64,000 nt of DNA, taken from positions 4,476,582 through 4,540,581 of the forward strand of contig NC_014364.1 in NCBI RefSeq assembly GCF_000143985.1, in the 5' to 3' direction. Positions 51,820-61,407 of this stretch are shown one piece after another; positions within the stretch are counted from its first letter, which is position 1; every line of letters begins with the position of its first letter. The stretch comes from Sediminispirochaeta smaragdinae DSM 11293 (GTDB lineage: Bacteria; Spirochaetota; Spirochaetia; DSM-16054; Sediminispirochaetaceae). The notes under the pieces were generated by a model that saw nothing but the letters and a program-made list of their open reading frames with translations, was not told where the DNA came from and did no database searches. The position numbers and the translations under genes are program-made.

Positions 51820-52884
51820 TTACCTCTTTTGTATTTTGGTCGATTCCTTTTGTTTCAGGATGCACGGTATCTTGATGAGAGAAGAGGATTCCGCAGGGGC
51901 CGTGCCCCCGATAAGCGAGAAAAGCGTTTTCGCAGCTTCTCTGCCGATATCGGTAAGGGGTAGCGCTACGGACGATAGGGTTGGAGAATATGCTGTACAG
52001 ATCTCCCTGTCGTCGAATCCGATCAAGGCGATATCGGTCCCAACGGAAATACCGTGTTCGGTCGCATATGCCAGTACACCGCCGGCGAGCAAATCGTTCA
52101 TGGCAAAAATGGCATCGACGGGCTGAGAGAACAAAGAGGTACAGGCACGGTAACCGCACTCGAATTCCCATCCCCCGGGAACGACGAGGGCGGGATTGAA
52201 CAGGATTTCGTTGTCGTACAGCGCCCGCTGATAGCCTGCGAGGCGCCACGCCGTATGTACGCTGTTGCTTTCTCCGCAAATGACGCCAATGTGACGACGG
52301 TTACCGGCGATCAAGGCGGTCGTCGCGTCGTAGGCGGCTCGTTCATCGTCGAAGATGACGGAAGGGATCCTGCCGTTGCTGCCAAAACTGTACGCAAGAA
52401 CGACGGGAATGGGAATTCCCGAGAGATCCAGGGAAAGTTCCCGCACATGGCAGCCAACATAGATGACGCCGTCGATACGTTTCGTCATTAGGACCTTGAT
52501 CCTGTTCGCGATATGGGAATGATGCTGGTTGGAGTTATAGAAATCGGCATGAAACCGTTTGTAGAACCGGAGATTTTCGATGAGGACTTCATACCCCTGC
52601 CGTTCACTGTATTCCTCAATTCCATCGACAATTTCTGGTGTATTGAATACCGTTAAATCTTCCGTGATGATACCGATGGTCTTCATATTTTTCGGCGCTT
52701 TCAGGCGCCGTGCAAATGCATTGGGACTGTAATGCAACTCTTTGATGACGGAGAAGACCTTTTTCTTCGTCGCCTCGCTGGCTCTCCCCTTGTGGTTGAC
52801 AATATTCGAGACCGTGGTAGCGGAAACGCCGCACCGCTTCGCGATCTCACTGACTGTGGCCATAGTGTTGTTGTCTTTTTTCAT
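51820..52884 (-). CDS. LacI-family transcriptional repressor
   Basis: This 354-aa protein has a LacI helix-turn-helix (MATVSEIAKRCGVSATTVSNIVNHKGRASEATKKKVFSVIKEL) and a periplasmic-binding-type sensor domain. DRIGFDDREICTAYSPTL-like ligand residues are visible (IGFDDREICT). It is the last gene of the carbohydrate operon, so it probably controls its own operon. The two palindromes at 60011 and 60053 are the likely operators. Confidence 0.93.
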   Translation of the reverse strand: MKKDNNTMATVSEIAKRCGVSATTVSNIVNHKGRASEATKKKVFSVIKELHYSPNAFARRLKAPKNMKTIGIITEDLTVFNTPEIVDGIEEYSERQGYEVLIENLRFYKRFHADFYNSNQHHSHIANRIKVLMTKRIDGVIYVGCHVRELSLDLSGIPIPVVLAYSFGSNGRIPSVIFDDERAAYDATTALIAGNRRHIGVICGESNSVHTAWRLAGYQRALYDNEILFNPALVVPGGWEFECGYRACTSLFSQPVDAIFAMNDLLAGGVLAYATEHGISVGTDIALIGFDDREICTAYSPTLSSVALPLTDIGREAAKTLFSLIGGTAPAESSSLIKIPCILKQKESTKIQKR

Positions 52885-52893
52885 ACTCTCCGC

Positions 52894-54846
52894 TTATTTC
52901 TTGCCCTCGTCAGGGAGCCTGATGAGTTCCTTCAGCCACACCGCCATTTCCCCGGGAGTCCTGTTGCCCCAGCAATAATAGGGAACGGCAACAAATTCGG
53001 TCTTTTCCATGATAAACGAATCGTCTGTCGAATACAATGCAGTGCTGTTTCCGGTCCGGCGGTAGCCGGAGAAGTGGACCGTTACAACACCATTTTCCGC
53101 CCTCTGCTCCTCGGGCCTGTGCGAAGTATCGACGTACACGGCAGACAGAGGCTTCCCGTTGTCCGTCTCTTCTGCACAATATACCTGCGGTCCCCGTTTG
53201 ATCGCTACTTTACCCGCGTCGGCGGCAACGCGGGAATTCGCACGGACGAACACCGGAGGCGCTTCGAACGTTATGCGTATCGATACGGTCTGTACGCCGT
53301 CCAGCGCAATATGGCAGTATCCTCGATGCAGTGTTTTCGCATACGGAATTTCCTGCGATCCAAGAATGACCCGGTAATTACGGGCAAAATGCGGCACACG
53401 GATAGCCAGGGTCCTTATTTCCTTTATCTCCGACATCATCACCTCAATAGTATTTTCCCTCGGATAGTCCGTCTTCACTTCGATATGCGTCCCATCGGGC
53501 AGGTCCGCCGTATTTGAAACGAAGAAGTTGAGGAATACGGTCGCATCTTCAAGGCTGTACACAAATAGCCCCAGTGAAGCAATCGTCCGGGCAATGTTGG
53601 GAGGACAACAGGCTACGCCAAACCACTTTTGCCTGACCGGCTTGACGTGCGCCATGCTTGTATGGCTCATGCATGTCTCGGGAACGACTTCCAGGGGATT
53701 AACGTAGAAAAAGCTCTTGCCGTCCAGAGCAACGCCGGCAAGAACAGTATTGTACAGCGCAAGTTCAGCGACATCGATATAGGAGGCATCCTTATACAGC
53801 CGGGCCAGCCGAATTCCCAACTGCAGCAGTCCTATAGACGCACAGCTTTCGCTGTAGTTGCGTTCGTTAGGTAAATCGTAATCGCACGTAAAGCGTTCCA
53901 GCACCCCTGAGGAACCGATACTGCCGGTCAGATACATGCGTCGTCCGACGATATTATCCCAAATGGTCCCGGCGGCACGCAAAAGCGTTTCGTCCTGTGT
54001 ACGTTCCGCCACATCGACCATTCCGCAGTACAGATACACGGCCCGTACGGCATGCCCCTCGGCGGTCTTCTGTTCTCTGACAGGGAGATGGCTCTGTGAA
54101 TAACGGGGATCATAATCGGCGAATTCGGGAAACTGGTGATGGAAACCCGGCCGTTCTTCTTCCGCAAGGAACCAATTTTTTCCCGAGCCCCGCCTGTCCA
54201 GAAAATATTTCGCTTGCCTGAGATATGCACCGTTTCCCGTCACATCCGCCAGCTTCACAAGCGCCAGCTCAATCTCCGGATGTCCGGGATATCCGTGGAT
54301 CTGCCCATCCCCGTCCCCGAATGTTTGGCAGATGAGATCGGCGAAACGGGTTGCAACGGTGAGTATCATATGCTTGCCCGTTGCGCAATAGTAGGCGACC
54401 GCCGCTTCGATGAGATGTCCGGCACAATACAGTTCATGCCCTTCCATAAGGTTGGACCAGCGCTCATATTCCGGATGCAGAATGACGTACGTATCGAGAT
54501 AGCCGTCGTCGCACTGGGCTTGGGCTATCAATTCCACGACCTTGTCCGCCTGCTGTTCCAAGAACGAATCGCAGCGCTGGGCCAGGATGTAGGAGACACC
54601 TTCGAGCCATTTATAGACATCGGTATCCTGGAAAAGCGCCCCGTAGTAGGCCCCTTCTTTCTCGTGTGCCGCAATTCTGAAGTTTTCAATGCTGTGGCTT
54701 GGCGGGGCTTCGGGAATCTCGTCGTTGATTGCCTTCCACTGGTACGGCAACATTTCATATTGAACAAGGTCCAGGTATCTGGACCAGAATTCGTCGGTGA
54801 TATGTATCTTGTCAAGCGATACGGTTTGTCGGTTTTGCATGGACAT
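52894..54846 (-). CDS. GH127 beta-L-arabinofuranosidase
   Basis: This 650-aa cytoplasmic GH127 protein has the family start QTVSLDKIHITDEFWSRYLDLVQYEMLPYQWKAIND, ENFRIAA, LYCAGHLIEAAVAYYCATG, and the full active-site set: NYSESCASIGLLQLG (Glu and Cys) and WFGVACCPPNIARTIASLG (double Cys, zinc-binding with catalytic thiolate). It should cleave terminal beta-L-arabinofuranosyl residues from imported oligosaccharides. It follows two ABC permease genes with one-base overlap (TAATG). Confidence 0.93.
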   Translation of the reverse strand: MSMQNRQTVSLDKIHITDEFWSRYLDLVQYEMLPYQWKAINDEIPEAPPSHSIENFRIAAHEKEGAYYGALFQDTDVYKWLEGVSYILAQRCDSFLEQQADKVVELIAQAQCDDGYLDTYVILHPEYERWSNLMEGHELYCAGHLIEAAVAYYCATGKHMILTVATRFADLICQTFGDGDGQIHGYPGHPEIELALVKLADVTGNGAYLRQAKYFLDRRGSGKNWFLAEEERPGFHHQFPEFADYDPRYSQSHLPVREQKTAEGHAVRAVYLYCGMVDVAERTQDETLLRAAGTIWDNIVGRRMYLTGSIGSSGVLERFTCDYDLPNERNYSESCASIGLLQLGIRLARLYKDASYIDVAELALYNTVLAGVALDGKSFFYVNPLEVVPETCMSHTSMAHVKPVRQKWFGVACCPPNIARTIASLGLFVYSLEDATVFLNFFVSNTADLPDGTHIEVKTDYPRENTIEVMMSEIKEIRTLAIRVPHFARNYRVILGSQEIPYAKTLHRGYCHIALDGVQTVSIRITFEAPPVFVRANSRVAADAGKVAIKRGPQVYCAEETDNGKPLSAVYVDTSHRPEEQRAENGVVTVHFSGYRRTGNSTALYSTDDSFIMEKTEFVAVPYYCWGNRTPGEMAVWLKELIRLPDEGKK

Positions 54847-55679
54847 TACCCCTTTACGGCACCGGCCGTCATACCTCCGATGATCTTGTCGGTAAGGAAG
54901 GCATAAATAATGATGGTAGGCAGAATCGAAATAACCATTGCCGCAAAAGCATGGGCATAGTTAGCACTGAAGGTGGTAAGGAACGAACGGATGGCGACCT
55001 GGATAGTCCGGGACACATCGCTCTGGCTTAGGAGATTGGCGAACAAGAGTTCGTTCCAGCAGTTTATGATGATGAAAATACATGCCGTAACGATTCCCGG
55101 AACGCTTATCGGCAGCACAATTTTTCGCAGGATCATGTGGGAAGAGGCTCCGTCGATATCGGCAGCTTCAAGAATCGTTTTGGGAATTGAACCCATATAT
55201 CCTTTGATGATCATGAGGCTCTGCGGTAAGTTTATCCCAGCATAGACAAACATGATTCCCATGGCGCTGTCGTACAGCCCGATTTTCGTGATCATAACAT
55301 AATACGGTACCAAAAAAGCATTGGTAGGTATAAACAGTCCGATCGCCAGGAAGGCAGCCACCTTCGTAGCAGCGGGAAAGGCATACATGAATGCATACGA
55401 AGCCAAGACAGAAACGAATGAACAGAGGAATGTCGCACATACAGCTACGACGACGGTATTACCGAAATACAGGAGGATCGGCTGGCTTTTGAATACCGAA
55501 ACGTAATTTTGGAACGACAAGTGCCGGGGTACGGCGAAAGGTTCCCTGAATAATTCTGTATTCGGCCGGAATGACGAGATGATGAGCCAGGCAAACGGAA
55601 GAATCATGATGATGAGGACACAGATAAGGAACAGCGAAAGCAAGACCCTGCTTACCGGAAATATAGTATGTTTTGTCAT
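54846..55679 (-). CDS. CUT1 sugar ABC permease (MalG-like)
   Basis: This 277-aa permease has the EAA loop AADIDGASSHMILRKIVLPISVPGIVTACIF and about six helices. The start at 55679 (MTKHTIF) has AGAGGA and overlaps the stop of the upstream permease by 4 bp; an ATG 57 bp upstream is inside that gene. It forms the channel with the MalF-like protein. No ATPase gene is in the operon, so a shared MsiK-type ATPase must be elsewhere. Confidence 0.93.
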   Translation of the reverse strand: MTKHTIFPVSRVLLSLFLICVLIIMILPFAWLIISSFRPNTELFREPFAVPRHLSFQNYVSVFKSQPILLYFGNTVVVAVCATFLCSFVSVLASYAFMYAFPAATKVAAFLAIGLFIPTNAFLVPYYVMITKIGLYDSAMGIMFVYAGINLPQSLMIIKGYMGSIPKTILEAADIDGASSHMILRKIVLPISVPGIVTACIFIIINCWNELLFANLLSQSDVSRTIQVAIRSFLTTFSANYAHAFAAMVISILPTIIIYAFLTDKIIGGMTAGAVKG

Positions 55680-56542
55680 AGTTCCTCTTCTTTCATGCGT
55701 TTTTGTACCCACAGGATAATTCCCATCACGATGCAACCGAGAATGATGGTCGCGAGACCGCCAACCATTGAGTATCCGTAGCGATTGGACTGCATCATTT
55801 CCCGGTAAATGTATAGCGATAGGTTCATAGTGGAGTTTGCAGGTCCGCCGCCGGTCATAAGAAATGGATATTCGAAGGTCTTCAGGCAGAACGCCAAGTT
55901 AAGCATAAGGTTTGTGATGATGGCGGGACGGACCAGAGGAAGAGAGATATACCAATCCTTCCTCCAGCCCACGGCTCCGTCGATCCTCGCTGCTTCGAAG
56001 ATATCGGGAGAGATGGTGGATAGCTGCGTCATGAAGATGACCATGGTAAGTCCGACATATAAGGCAAAAGGCACTTGGTTGCAAAACAATGCCGTCGCAG
56101 GCTCATTGAGCCAACCGTGCCGGTACGTACCCAGCCCGATAAGCTCAAGGATGCCGTTGATCAAACCGAGATCCACATGATACAGGAAATACCACAGGAA
56201 GGCTATCGCGGTCGTCGATATGATATTCGGGATGAAGAAAGCGAAACGGTATACCTTCCATCCTCTCGGCCTCCTGTCTAGCAGGAAGGCTAGTAAAAGA
56301 CCGAGCGGAACATGAATGAACGTCGCTGTCAGCATCCAAATAATGGTATTGCGTACGGAAATCCTGAATACGGGATCTGCAAGTACCTTACGGTAGTTTC
56401 CGATCCCGACGAATTTCATTGGGGTCAAACCATCCCATTGGAAAAATCCGACGTAGAGCAGATAGACGAACGGGACGATGAAAAATATGACGGTCATACA
56501 TATGGCAGGTAGCAGATAGAGCGTTCTTTGCTTTGTGGTCAT
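55676..56542 (-). CDS. CUT1 sugar ABC permease (MalF-like)
   Basis: This 288-aa permease has MTTKQRTLYLLPAICMTVIFFIVPFVYLLYVGFFQWDG at its start, about six helices, and the EAA loop EAARIDGAVGWRKDWYISLPLVRPAIITNLMLN. ATG 56542 is preferred to the in-frame ATG at 56602, whose extra 20 residues look non-native. A perfect hairpin lies between it and the binding-protein gene. Confidence 0.92.
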   Translation of the reverse strand: MTTKQRTLYLLPAICMTVIFFIVPFVYLLYVGFFQWDGLTPMKFVGIGNYRKVLADPVFRISVRNTIIWMLTATFIHVPLGLLLAFLLDRRPRGWKVYRFAFFIPNIISTTAIAFLWYFLYHVDLGLINGILELIGLGTYRHGWLNEPATALFCNQVPFALYVGLTMVIFMTQLSTISPDIFEAARIDGAVGWRKDWYISLPLVRPAIITNLMLNLAFCLKTFEYPFLMTGGGPANSTMNLSLYIYREMMQSNRYGYSMVGGLATIILGCIVMGIILWVQKRMKEEEL

Positions 56543-56608
56543 AGTGCAAAAGCAATCCTCGTACGTTGCGTGTGCCGTAATAACGGCAGAAAGGAGAAAC
56601 AATGCGTT

Positions 56609-56644: not shown

Positions 56645-57925
56645 TCATTGATTGTCTTGTGCCAATTGCTGCGCGAATTCCTGTGGAGTGATCATACCAA
56701 GCGCCAGGCTTTCCATCAGCGAAGGAATCTGGGCATTCGCGGCCAGCTTGAGATTCCTCTGGATGTTCACGATACTCTCAGGAGCCGTGGAATTGATGGT
56801 TATATACTGGACCATGAGCGGATCGACATTACCGAGATCAACACCGTCCAAATCGAGATGAGGGGAAAGAAAGACACTACCGTTGAGCGTCAGATCCCTG
56901 GTATTTTCCGCATTGGTGACGAATTTCATAAATTCCACGATGGCTTCCTCTTTCGCCTTATCCGTTTGCGTTGAGGCAGCCCACGGGGTTTGGGCATCGG
57001 TAACCGTAAAACCCGGTTTTACGACGCCGTCGCCGAACGTTGGTGCAGGGGCAATGGCCACATGCCCCTTGATATCGTCGTCAAGAGAGCCTATCAGCCA
57101 CGGGCCGTCTATGACCATAGCAGTCTTCCCGGCAGAAAAATTATTTACGCTGACACTGTAATTCGCCCCGATGGCGTCTCCGGTCGTCATGGCGAAAGCC
57201 TTCGCAAGGTAGGTGGCACCTTTTATCATTGCGGGAGTATTGAGATCGACATCCGTCTTGTTAAAGAATTCCGTTCCTCCAGCGCTTGCCGCAAGGTAGG
57301 AAAGAAGATTCGTCGCATGCCATGCATCGTCCGCTGTATAGAGGGAAATACCCTTCATGCCGTCTTTCCCAAGCTTCTCGAACGCCTTGAACAATTCATC
57401 CCAGGTAGTCGGGAACGATGTATATCCGTCCTTTGCGAACAGATCCTTGTTGTAATAGATAAGGGCACCAGCTTTCTCAAAGGGTATGGAAGTCAGTTTC
57501 CCGTCGATCGTCAACGCCTTGAGGTCTCCCTCATTGAACCGCGATCTCCATGTATCGTCCATGTAGGGGGCGAAATCCATCAATTTACCCGACCGCTGTC
57601 TGGACAGGTCATTCGGATTAAAGTTGTAGTGAAAAATATCCGGAGGATTCCCCGCCGATATCATGGCCTTGATCTTTTCCTGGTAAGCGGGAAAGTCCGG
57701 GTTGATGTCTACGTTGACCTTGATGGACCCGGCATGTTCCTCGTTGAATTTGGCGATGATATCGTTGAGGGCCTTTCCACGCTGGGTGTCAGTACTCCAG
57801 CTGTGGTAGAGACTAATCTCGATGACATTCGCCTTTCCCGACGTCGCCTGTTCTTCCTTGTTTCCCGTTGCAAACAGCGGGAAAAGACAGAGCAGGAACA
57901 TGAGACACAAAATGATCTTTTTCAT
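56645..57925 (-). CDS. Extracellular sugar-binding protein (CUT1)
   Basis: This 426-aa binding protein has a signal peptide ending LFATGNKE. Family stretches include ISLYHSWSTDTQRGKALNDIIAKFNEEH, MISAGNPPDIFHYNFNP, FPTTWDELFKAFEKL and GKTAMVIDGPWLIGSL. It should capture an oligosaccharide with arabinose or a similar sugar for the adjacent permeases. The ATG overlaps the stop of the upstream 689-codon gene (ATGA). Confidence 0.93.
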   Translation of the reverse strand: MKKIILCLMFLLCLFPLFATGNKEEQATSGKANVIEISLYHSWSTDTQRGKALNDIIAKFNEEHAGSIKVNVDINPDFPAYQEKIKAMISAGNPPDIFHYNFNPNDLSRQRSGKLMDFAPYMDDTWRSRFNEGDLKALTIDGKLTSIPFEKAGALIYYNKDLFAKDGYTSFPTTWDELFKAFEKLGKDGMKGISLYTADDAWHATNLLSYLAASAGGTEFFNKTDVDLNTPAMIKGATYLAKAFAMTTGDAIGANYSVSVNNFSAGKTAMVIDGPWLIGSLDDDIKGHVAIAPAPTFGDGVVKPGFTVTDAQTPWAASTQTDKAKEEAIVEFMKFVTNAENTRDLTLNGSVFLSPHLDLDGVDLGNVDPLMVQYITINSTAPESIVNIQRNLKLAANAQIPSLMESLALGMITPQEFAQQLAQDNQ

Positions 57926-59991
57926 TTTTTTCTCCTTTCATCTGCTGCAAGATTCTTGCAGAATTTTTCATAACGGGTAATCCCGTCGATCGTCGCACTG
58001 TATATCCATCCGAGAGAGCCCCAGACGTCTCCCTTTTCGATCAAGTCGTCGTCGCATCCTTCGGGACATATGCCCCAGCCTTCCGGCTGCATGCCGATGC
58101 CTGCGAAGCCGAAAGTGCAGCCGGGATACGAAATGCACTGTGCGGAAGCGCGCACAATTTCATCCGCGGCCTTCAGAAAAATCGGCTCATCCAGTTCACG
58201 GCCCAGATACACCAGTTCCGCCGTATGAAACAGAGCGTAAATGTCCACTACGCCGCCGCCCCATATCGAGTTAATCCCGCCCATCCCGCGCGTCCTGAAC
58301 GTGCAGCGGTCGGTGAATGCCCCCTCCAAGTTTGGTGCATTCCAAGTATAGATCCAGCTCAAAAACTGATAGGCGGCACATCTCGCACCTTCCAGGTAGT
58401 CTTTCCTTTTCGTCAAACGATAACAGGCCACAAGAGCCGCCATGGTATATTGGGCGGCTTCCTTGTCGACAACATTCGGATTATCCATGGTCCCCCCGCG
58501 AAAACATTCGCTTCGCACAGAGGAACGGAGAAGGTGCTCGGCCCCTTTCCCTATGGATGTCCGGAGCGCCCGTGTGTCTTCTCCGTCGGTCTCAAGGAAC
58601 TCACAGAGAGCACACAGGAACGGAAGGGGGATGGGCGTACCGCTCTTCTCCGCACTGCGGTCCGGCTGACTTTTGTCGACTGCAGCGGGAAGGCCGTCGG
58701 GTCCGTAGCCGCGGTACCATGATCCGTCGGTATCCTGTGCGCGAACAAGGAATGCGGCAAAAGCCAGGATACACGCCTTCCAGCGCGGTTTCTCCGTGCC
58801 ATACTGCGCAAAAAGCCGATAGCATCGGAGCAAATCGAAAATCGGTTCAACCATCGTCCTGAGATAATTGCCCTTTTTGTCTGTGTTCCATACGTAATGG
58901 AGCCGCGGGGCATTGGGGTCACCGAATGAGAAAACCGGTTTTTGGGCACTGATATCGTAGAGCGAATAGACCCATCCGGAAGCGACGGTACACCGATCTA
59001 CGAAGAAATCGATCACAACCTCACTGCGTTCCAGCCACTGGGCGGGGTCGGCTTTGGCCAAAAGATATGCAGCATTGAGCTGCCTTCCTGTAAAGCCGTA
59101 CTCCAGTACATGCGAATAGGATGTTTCTGGAATAGTACGGAATGAAGAACCGAAGCCGGAAGGTAGCGATCCGTATCCCTTAGTCGGGTCGAAATGGAAA
59201 AAGAACCCGGCCCCCCTACCTTCCTCGAATGTCCGGTAAGTCTCGGCCAGGGAACGTATTTTATAGGTGACGGCATCCTCCGCCGAAAGGTTCCCCCCGC
59301 AAGGAGAAGGCGTACACTCGAAGCTTCTTGTGTATTCCCGGAAGATCGCTTCAGAATAGGAAGCCGCCTTTTTCGAGGAAAGCGTAAACACAAAAGAAAA
59401 GGTTCTTTGCGCTCCGTTCATCGGATAGAATGCCTCCGGAGCCGAACCGTTCCGATCAAGGGATATGCTGCCTTCCGTTTCCCGATATGGCCAATGAAAC
59501 AGGAACATTCCCTTCTTTGTATACCCAAGCGAGGAAATATCGGTTTCGTGCAGATATTTTGTTGCCCCTTTCCTTCGGTGGGGGCGGCGACAAAAGAGAG
59601 AAACCGAATCCTTGGAAAAGCCGAATGCGGTTCCGTCCGACTGGTGGTATACAAGAACGAACGGTGATGGCAGACGATCTTCGCGGTATTCGGCAGTCTC
59701 CGGCCCCTCTTCTGGTCCGTATTGCAACGACGGAACGCAGACTCTTCCCGCCATGTTTTCAACAGCAGCAGTCATGCTCAGGCGGATCCCCGTACCGATA
59801 TCGCCGGCGGCAACAGGCAGGGAAAAGCGCAGAGACAAAACCGTATCATCCTCTCCTGCAGCTTTGGCTTCAAGGAAGACAGCAGTATCGTAGGCGGCCG
59901 TGTCCCGCACGGTCTTCTGCGCGTCGAGCGTCTGGATAGTTATGGTAACGGAACAGGGGATATTCCCGATCCTTATCTCTTTTCTGATCAT
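57922..59991 (-). CDS. Uncharacterised protein, probable alpha-toroid carbohydrate enzyme
   Basis: I do not recognise this 689-aa protein as a named family. It has no signal peptide. The N-terminal 250 residues are beta-rich; from about residue 290 long helical repeats follow, with SGWVYSLYDIS, YLRTMVEPIFDLLRCYRLFA, DGSWYRGYGPDG, DKEAAQYTMAALVACYRLT and GGINSIWGGGVVDIYALFHTAEL, the style of (alpha/alpha)6 glycosidases or sugar epimerases. It is the first gene of the operon, coupled (ATGA) to the sugar-binding protein and followed by permeases, GH127 and LacI. It is therefore likely to act on the same imported saccharide. The two LacI-like operators lie 20 and 62 bp upstream. Confidence 0.72.
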   Translation of the reverse strand: MIRKEIRIGNIPCSVTITIQTLDAQKTVRDTAAYDTAVFLEAKAAGEDDTVLSLRFSLPVAAGDIGTGIRLSMTAAVENMAGRVCVPSLQYGPEEGPETAEYREDRLPSPFVLVYHQSDGTAFGFSKDSVSLFCRRPHRRKGATKYLHETDISSLGYTKKGMFLFHWPYRETEGSISLDRNGSAPEAFYPMNGAQRTFSFVFTLSSKKAASYSEAIFREYTRSFECTPSPCGGNLSAEDAVTYKIRSLAETYRTFEEGRGAGFFFHFDPTKGYGSLPSGFGSSFRTIPETSYSHVLEYGFTGRQLNAAYLLAKADPAQWLERSEVVIDFFVDRCTVASGWVYSLYDISAQKPVFSFGDPNAPRLHYVWNTDKKGNYLRTMVEPIFDLLRCYRLFAQYGTEKPRWKACILAFAAFLVRAQDTDGSWYRGYGPDGLPAAVDKSQPDRSAEKSGTPIPLPFLCALCEFLETDGEDTRALRTSIGKGAEHLLRSSVRSECFRGGTMDNPNVVDKEAAQYTMAALVACYRLTKRKDYLEGARCAAYQFLSWIYTWNAPNLEGAFTDRCTFRTRGMGGINSIWGGGVVDIYALFHTAELVYLGRELDEPIFLKAADEIVRASAQCISYPGCTFGFAGIGMQPEGWGICPEGCDDDLIEKGDVWGSLGWIYSATIDGITRYEKFCKNLAADERRKK

Positions 59992-60010: not shown

Positions 60011-60022
60011 TTTAACGTTAAA
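60011..60022. promoter_or_regulatory. LacI-type operator 1
   Basis: TTTAACGTTAAA is a perfect 12-bp palindrome with the central CG usual for LacI-family sites. It lies 20 bp upstream of the first gene of the carbohydrate operon. Confidence 0.72.
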
Positions 60023-60052: not shown

Positions 60053-60064
60053 TTTAACGATAAA
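60053..60064. promoter_or_regulatory. LacI-type operator 2
   Basis: TTTAACGATAAA matches operator 1 except at one position and lies 42 bp further upstream, four helical turns away. Paired sites of this sort suit cooperative repressor binding. Confidence 0.68.
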
Positions 60065-60343: not shown

Positions 60344-61407
60344 AGTAAAAAATTTGGAGCCCCCAGCGTATCCCTTGGATTGGCTCTGAAACCTTACTAT
60401 AAAAACCCATTTTCAGTGAATTTGTCGCCATTACCCTATGACCTTGCTTTTGTAAAAGATTCCTGGGCATGTTTCCGAGACAGGTGTCACATACCATTCG
60501 ACCGCCAGCTTCTTCTATGACTTTCACATAGCCCATCTTTTCAGCGAATGATTTTACCTCCCTGGAGGTCAAAACCCAAAGCGCCACTCCGGAATGCACC
60601 TTTTTCCCGGAAAGGAGCTTCGCAATAGCCTCGATTTCGTTAGTTGAGCAATGAGGACAACCGATCAATACGAAGTCGACTTCTTTGGCAGTTGTTTTTG
60701 AAATTAACTCCTCAGTCTCCCGAAGTTCCTTTTCCCCAAACTCATAACGCTCCAAATCCACCGGTTTCTTATTTCAGAAGGCAGCTTCTTCGGTTGGGGC
60801 CTCCGGCGTGACACCCACAACGTGATGAAGAGCAACACTACCCGAAGTCGATGCAGCGGCTCCGAGCAAGCCCAAGTCACCCCACGTCAAAGGAAGCGAC
60901 AGACCTGTCACGGCAGGAATCCTGTCCTGAGCTACCGTACCGACGAAATAGCCCAAGGTTCCATAATCATGACGATCCTTGAGTTTCGCCGTAACCGAGA
61001 TCTTTAATTCCGCGCGGAGATTTCGGTCGGGATGAAGGCCGTACTCGGGTACCCTCCCCACTATGGCGGCAGCCAAAGGAACAGGTTCAGCGTCCCTGTT
61101 TGTTCTGGCACCAAGGACAGAATTCGCGAAACTGATCGCCGAGGATTCAGTCCAGGAAACATGCTGCCCACAAGAGGGGATATTACCCATCACATGCGGG
61201 GTACAGGTACTGGCGACATAAGCTCATAAACATCGCCCCGGCCTTACCTGCAAGAAAGCGTCCTCCTCCTGCATGAGCAGACACGATAGGTATCATCCTG
61301 GCAGCGTCATAGCACTTACCTACGCGAACAAGGATTTCCATCGATTTCCGGACAGCGTTACCGTACTTGCCTTCCAACATCTTCTCTTCTTCTATAGTTA
61401 GATGCAT
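60344..61407 (-). pseudogene. Aconitase X catalytic domain gene, decayed
   Basis: Three pieces fit one aconitase X (AcnX) protein. The N-terminus (61407-61183) is MHLTIEEEKMLEGKYGNAVRKSMEILVRVG. A middle part in another frame reads CTPHVMGNIPSCGQHVSWTESSAISFANSVLGARTNRD. The C-terminal part, VDFVLIGCPHCSTNEIEAIAKLL, is separated from the middle by one in-frame TGA at 60774-60776. About 70 residues are missing at the first junction. A MITE-like element has replaced the 3' end. AcnX enzymes dehydrate cis-3-hydroxyproline or mevalonate-5-phosphate; this copy is dead. Confidence 0.82.

Follow-up and report, generated by a model that had tools for sequence, protein, structure and literature searches.

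A 689-residue protein with a predicted beta-sandwich and toroid, possibly a glycosidase, leads a CUT1 importer and GH127 operon in Sediminispirochaeta smaragdinae

The first gene of a sugar-import operon in Sediminispirochaeta smaragdinae DSM 11293 encodes a 689-residue protein that may be a glycosidase outside the families named in Pfam and NCBIfam. The gene lies in a 64,000-nucleotide stretch of contig NC_014364.1 (positions 4,476,582 to 4,540,581), which as a whole we call the window and whose own numbering is used below. The protein is predicted to fold as a beta-sandwich followed by an (alpha/alpha)6 toroid, carries a conserved set of acidic residues, and shares its operon with a CUT1 importer, a GH127 enzyme and a LacI-family regulator. 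We infer its activity and substrate; the likeliest reading, to which we give about even odds, is a cytoplasmic exo-glycosidase that acts with the GH127 enzyme on imported arabinosides.

57922-59991, minus strand: gene for the 689-residue protein (beta-sandwich at residues 1-208, linker helix at 212-226, (alpha/alpha)6 toroid at 237-688)

Results

A real gene outside the named Pfam and NCBIfam families

The open reading frame is intact on the minus strand and opens with ATG (59991-57922), and stop codons close the plus strand across 57922-59991. Because a contig scan found nine relatives in other genomes (Paenibacillus, Faecalicatena, Mediterraneibacter, Diplocloster and one Clostridiales strain), with 39-45% identity over the best segment and alignments that begin at residues 4-99 and extend to at least residue 674, we conclude that this is a real gene. 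The original prediction, which was made from the sequence alone, had placed the gene correctly, and we add its strand.

That prediction described the protein as unrecognised, and the description holds, with no credible match and no clear match to an established family in Pfam, NCBIfam, PHROGs or PDB sequences. The best scores were to DUF6093 in Pfam (E 0.21) and pec_lyase in NCBIfam (E 0.076), both of which we take as chance; PHROGs gave no match at E 1 and a phmmer search of PDB sequences none at E 10. The AGE (N-acylglucosamine 2-epimerase) model PF07221 did not match the protein at E 1, nor did the GH127 models PF07944, PF20736 and PF20737. When PDB was searched with profiles, that of the close branch defined below retrieved nothing at E 10, a wider one only two terpene cyclases (E 0.05 and 0.5), and one built from 15 distant relatives only a lytic endopeptidase (E 1.2). 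Two single distant relatives (L105 and L128; L numbers denote loci) retrieved nothing at E 1, and the Bacteroides finegoldii relative only LANCL1 (E 0.15). No PL27 chain appeared at E 10 in the phmmer search or in two profile searches. Neither did any chain of the former GH154 family (8oi4, BcGDH) or of GH139 (9hyq, 9hmb) appear at E 10 in the PDB sequence searches, in which the presence of these entries is unconfirmed.

Ten distant relatives scanned with Pfam were likewise unnamed apart from short stretches. PF07944 scored at E 0.1 in seven of the ten, over 28-167 residues, and passed its cut-off in three (L105, L113, L123); PF07221 scored below cut-off in three (L105, L106, L118); and one Pec_lyase and one GH76 match passed the cut-off. 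These echoes of Pec_lyase (PL10) and GH76, together with those of GH88 and C5-epimerase, were short, and we read them as toroid repeats.

One branch of a large group

The original prediction saw the gene in isolation; the protein proved to be one branch of a large unnamed group with relatives in several phyla, including Bacteroidota, Pseudomonadota and Deinococcota. Matches were found in 16 of 392 sampled genomes of its own phylum, its own genome counted, and the other 15 relatives are distant (16-21% identity). Profile matches at E ≤0.001 occurred in 50 of 295 sampled genomes from the family of Paenibacillus paridis and in 16 of 299 from that of Diplocloster. Plasmids carry relatives in Bacteroides finegoldii, Segatella hominis, Catenovulum and Deinococcus, all four annotated as 'hypothetical protein'. 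Among viral contigs, 77 stretches fit a pattern and none encoded a relative; viral predicted structures gave one match at E ≤0.001, which is unnamed.

One alignment (A4) holds 58 of 70 listed relatives plus the window protein, the list being confined to proteins of 590 to 850 residues free of X; another has 78 rows, in which proteins above 850 residues were trimmed to the domain; and a separate 9-protein alignment takes in the four plasmid relatives. Clustered at ∼30% identity, the 78 rows fall into eight groups, and the window protein sits in a group of 15.

F5/8-type C, SLH or ricin-lectin domains occur in large, presumably secreted members. Three relatives are very large (∼1300-2000 residues; L113:3369-9362, L114:15981-19871 and L115:1169-5113), with several F5/8-type C domains in L113 and L115 and SLH domains also in L113. 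A signal-peptide-like start was seen by eye in two Bacteroidota relatives. The window protein was predicted to be cytoplasmic, in agreement with its lack of a signal peptide, also judged by eye.

Predicted fold

We carried out the structure prediction and fold comparison that the original prediction had proposed. AlphaFold gave a mean predicted local distance difference test (pLDDT) of 78.3 and a predicted template modelling score (pTM) of 0.88 with 25 sequences, and a pLDDT of 88.4 and a pTM of 0.93 with 59. In the model, residues 1-208 are mainly beta strands arranged as a beta-sandwich and residues 237-688 form twelve long helices in an (alpha/alpha)6 toroid, much as had been foreseen in the description of a beta-rich start followed by an alpha-toroid; the last element is a helix at 662-688.

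The fold comparison gave a PL27 lyase as the best whole-chain match and mostly epimerases as the best matches to the toroid. In Foldseek, the two PL27 structures 5nok and 5no8 (BACCELL_00875) took the first two ranks for both models along the whole chain (5no8: E 6.5e-10, root-mean-square deviation [rmsd] 8.9), followed by cellobiose phosphorylase, AGE epimerases, GH116, GH76 and GH52, and all 50 matches listed were sugar enzymes or AGE-family proteins. With VIA-align, the best toroid matches were mostly sugar 2-epimerases, the cellobiose 2-epimerases reaching Z 26.2 over 357 residues (rmsd 3.2), and 5no8 scored Z 22.7 over 490 residues (rmsd 6.1). GH154 and GH139 were absent among the fold matches listed, an absence that proves nothing.

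Conserved residues and a candidate active site

The 78-row alignment revealed a small set of nearly constant residues. D509 and G339 are kept in all 78 rows, E637 (with one gap), W657 and P87 in 77, and E511 and Y91 in 76; D503 is present in 75 and replaced by E in the other three. R378 (72 rows), D583 (71) and R427 (62) are somewhat more variable. In the 9-protein alignment D503, D509, E511, R378, R427, E637, Y91 and R106 are invariant. By sequence position on the model, helix 4 has R378 and helix 8 has E511 in its first turn; D503 and D509 immediately precede helix 8, D583 immediately precedes helix 10, and E637 is in the loop that leads to helix 12. No histidine is kept family-wide, and no alignment column has one in more than 27 of the 78 rows; H365 is kept in the close branch only, and H266 in 14 of its 15 members plus two members of another group.

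Because the acid cluster is conserved without a family-wide histidine, an acid/base glycosidase is suggested. The original prediction had left glycosidase, lyase and epimerase open. Its account of anatomy and context stands, and the conserved residues would favour an acid/base glycosidase over an AGE-type epimerase.

The operon and its candidate operators

The gene was predicted to lead an operon with a CUT1 importer and a GH127 enzyme, and Pfam bears out this composition. On the minus strand the order is the 689-residue protein gene, solute-binding protein, permease, permease, GH127 and LacI, and the stop of the first gene overlaps the ATG of the second (57922-57925). The other features are as follows.

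56645-57925, minus strand: CUT1 solute-binding protein (PF01547, E 3e-38)
55676-56602, minus strand: CUT1 permease A, MalF/UgpA type (PF00528; GlcT and UgpA models below cut-off)
54846-55736, minus strand: CUT1 permease B, MalG type (PF00528; GlcU and MalG models below cut-off)
52894-54846, minus strand: GH127 enzyme with a CCPPN stretch (PF07944, E 8e-103; 4qjy, 617 bits)
51820-52884, minus strand: LacI-family regulator, last gene of the operon (PF00356, PF13377)
60011-60022, strand not assigned: palindrome TTTAACGTTAAA, candidate LacI operator (exact-pattern genome scan)
60053-60064, minus strand: TTTATCGTTAAA, second candidate operator, 42 bp from TTTAACGTTAAA (exact-pattern genome scan)

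The closest solved relative of the GH127 enzyme is the GH127 beta-L-arabinofuranosidase 4qjy (617 bits); on the NCBIfam model for aceric acid hydrolase it scores 386 bits, where 950 are required. It is the only carbohydrate-active enzyme (CAZyme) that Pfam recognises among the six operon genes. The same genome encodes an L-arabinose isomerase (PF02610).

The position of the gene at the head of the operon is accompanied by an exact pair of TTTAWCGTTAAA sites just upstream, which is suggestive only. In the 4.65-Mb genome, exact TTTAWCGTTAAA has two matches, both ≤75 bp upstream of the start of the gene, and a backward-read control pattern has one genome match. Because the pattern was drawn by eye from these very sites, this result is suggestive and is no independent test. 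A scan allowing one mismatch was unremarkable on its own, with 4 matches against a mean of 0.95 and 4 reached in 5 of 100 shuffles. CG-centred palindromes number 23 per 64 kb in the window; they occur in 4 of 11 stretches of relatives' loci (L001, L118, L121 and L060) and are missing from the other 7. In L001 a different CG-centred site is present as two identical copies, 43 bp apart, before the first operon gene (GH127). The two candidate operators in the window would fit a LacI-controlled operon that starts at the 689-residue protein gene.

Just upstream of the operon lies a broken aconitase-X (AcnX, PF04412) gene (60393-61407, minus strand), whose N-terminal piece matches profile positions 1-62 and whose second stretch, matching 113-383, is interrupted by a TGA. 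The genome has no other AcnX match, and the gene resembles a pseudogene.

Neighbourhoods of relatives

A neighbourhood survey, which the original prediction had also proposed, found at least one CUT1-like gene in 36 of the 43 loci examined with wider flanks. In the close branch of 15 members, 14 (the window included) have the genes of a matching solute-binding protein and of both permeases immediately downstream; the exception, L008, has a different CUT1 set located upstream. GH127 is encoded in the same locus in five of the 15 (the window, L001, L002, L008 and L122), and in L009 the contig ends too early to show one, and GH127 genes are found on other contigs of the same genome. Response-regulator-like and sensor-kinase-like genes were recognised by eye in nine Paenibacillaceae-level loci and in L002, L009 and L122. 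Among the distant relatives in the window's own phylum, 11 of 14 loci have LacI together with a CUT1 set.

Pentose-rich plant glycans are the common theme of the loci. In a more distant branch, a member adjoins GH127 in L121, and two paralogues stand on either side of a GH43 beta-xylosidase gene, all on one strand (L120:7740-14109). In L123, GH43 is accompanied by aldehyde dehydrogenase, FAA hydrolase and dehydratase genes. Two Bacteroidota members adjoin GH43 genes in loci that also hold SusD-type genes. Substrates surely vary, because the Bacteroides finegoldii member has GH88, GH2 and GH130 neighbours too, and another member stands beside GH101-like and GH95-like proteins (L007:96-5456), a glycan theme other than arabinosides.

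Directly downstream of a distant relative in two loci lies a gene for a protein of ∼810 residues (L118:11028-13457 and L119:11052-13496). Pfam finds nothing in the L118 copy at E 1e-5, and the protein is possibly another unnamed enzyme.

Discussion

A proposed glycosidase working beside GH127

We propose that a small arabinose-containing plant oligosaccharide would be taken up through the CUT1 importer, that the 689-residue enzyme and the co-operonic GH127 would strip sugars off its non-reducing end, and that the LacI regulator would turn the operon on in the presence of the sugar. The cytoplasmic enzyme would hydrolyse glycosides in exo fashion, probably with inversion, and its family would be one that Pfam and NCBIfam do not name. 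Its sugar would sit in the toroid pocket under a roof of beta-sandwich loops with Y91 and R106, and the putative catalytic pair, presumably facing one shared pocket and dividing the roles of acid and base, would be E637 and one acid of the D503/D509/E511 cluster, where helix 8 begins.

Several observations weigh against this proposal. We know of no activity for any member, the top whole-chain structural match is a lyase and the top toroid matches are epimerases. Non-sugar proteins are also found among the 50 VIA-align matches listed, drimenyl diphosphate synthase accounting for seven and a virus tail protein scoring Z ∼20.7; because such proteins match too, the shared toroid says little about the reaction. 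The conserved set is not uniform: losses affect D583 in two groups, R378 in one, and E511 in some members of one. A group of three has lost both D583 and R427; in a group of five, found at some loci next to GH127 or GH43, three members retain E511 and two retain D583; a group of six has Cys in place of R378; and a group of seven lacks R427. No CUT1-like gene was found in 7 of the 43 loci (L047, L048, L058, L116, L120, L129 and L130), and no GH127 in any of the nine loci of Paenibacillaceae-level members. A genome-wide GH127 search, which covered member genomes other than that of L003, found no match in that of one Paenibacillaceae-level member (G396). Because GH127 is missing from these nine loci and from G396 altogether, the partnership is not obligatory. 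Finally, the family once called GH154 proved to hold dehydratases, according to PMC12269599.

Relation to known enzymes and alternative readings

The PL27 L-rhamnose-alpha-1,4-D-glucuronate lyase BACCELL_00875 (5no8, 5nok) is the nearest whole-chain counterpart, of similar length and with the same N-terminal beta-sandwich and (alpha/alpha)6 toroid. PL27 lyases use a Tyr as base and act on Rha-GlcA. The order of beta-sandwich and then toroid is that given for PL27 in PMC8377490. This likeness is the chief reason to consider a lyase or a uronate dehydratase, which would perform a C4-C5 elimination on a uronic acid of the imported oligosaccharide, as PL27 or the former GH154 do; we consider such an activity possible, less likely than hydrolysis and, on balance, improbable. 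Y91 and R378 are well kept, as would suit it. The former GH154 enzymes have a toroid fold. As described in PMC12269599, these enzymes, now uronate dehydratases (BcGDH, BT_3677), belong to glycan-use loci in which GH88/GH105 are frequent partners, and the B. finegoldii relative similarly adjoins a GH88 gene. However, the PL27 match has a high rmsd (6-9) at 7-8% identity, no sequence link to any such PDB chain was detected, and the operon, with GH127 as its sole CAZyme recognised by Pfam, has no recognised uronate-processing partner gene. Moreover, the most constant residues are carboxylates, whereas two tyrosines and one arginine are proposed as catalytic for the dehydratase (PMC12269599).

Cellobiose phosphorylases (8ho7, 8hob, 8ho9) follow PL27 in Foldseek, and phosphorylases do occur among cytoplasmic enzymes that combine a beta-sandwich with a toroid, so that an imported pentoside could be envisaged to undergo GH94- or GH65-like phosphorolysis in the cytoplasm. 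We find it quite improbable: several carboxylates are conserved and not one, the cellobiose phosphorylase match has an rmsd of 24.9 over the aligned chain, and phosphorolysis would be unusual for relatives that carry SLH domains or lie in SusD-type loci. More generally, GH76, GH116, GH94 and GH52 have a toroid or a beta-sandwich plus toroid in common with the window protein, at ∼10% identity and with whole-chain rmsd of 22-25 for GH94, GH116 and GH52. An AGE-type sugar epimerase or isomerase is very improbable in our estimation, even though the closest toroids are the cellobiose 2-epimerases of the AGE superfamily (5zig, 3wkf; Z ∼26 over ∼357 residues) and a few distant relatives have weak PF07221 scores. 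AGE enzymes have two catalytic histidines in the pocket of the toroid, and the beta-sandwich is foreign to them; the family under study has conserved acids and no such family-wide pair, H365 and H266 being wholly or largely limited to the close branch, and the window protein has no PF07221 match.

A divergent GH127 was also considered. The operon partner shares the toroid, and a pairwise profile comparison gave a probability of 96%, a value uncalibrated against a database. Because of this and because the invariant acids miss the GH127 motifs in the profile alignment, we reject membership. The window protein has no PF07944 match, its toroid comes last whereas that of GH127 comes first, and it lacks CCPPN, seen in the operon GH127. 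CCPPN is the Cys-rich Zn site of GH127, as in HypBA1. A remote common origin of the two toroids is possible, because three distant relatives pass the PF07944 cut-off over short stretches. GH139 differs in another way: it has a third, C-terminal beta-sheet domain (PMC12282258), which is absent from our model, ending as it does at helix 662-688.

The protein could also belong to a family that is listed in CAZy and lies outside the coverage of Pfam, NCBIfam and PDB, a reading that is compatible with any of the others and that we rate as somewhat unlikely. Pfam and NCBIfam do not cover every CAZy family. Conversely, four plasmid records still label relatives as 'hypothetical protein', and a search of the open-licence literature with a narrow range of terms found no described enzyme of this kind. 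Newness is therefore judged against Pfam, NCBIfam, PHROGs and PDB only, and a 'new CAZy family' is unproven.

Implications

Returning to the glycosidase proposal, we suggest tentatively, and with rather less conviction than for the activity itself, that the window protein belongs to the founding branch of a new superfamily of two-domain toroid glycosidases that spans several phyla and has its own catalytic set (D503/D509/E511 and E637, with Y91 and R106 in the roof). The close branch would remove a pentosyl linkage that occurs in arabinose-rich plant glycans and has no known enzyme. The operon points to a definite class of substrate and to a partner enzyme. From an assay on one member, annotation of a large group could follow, and a missing step in the breakdown of these glycans might be filled.

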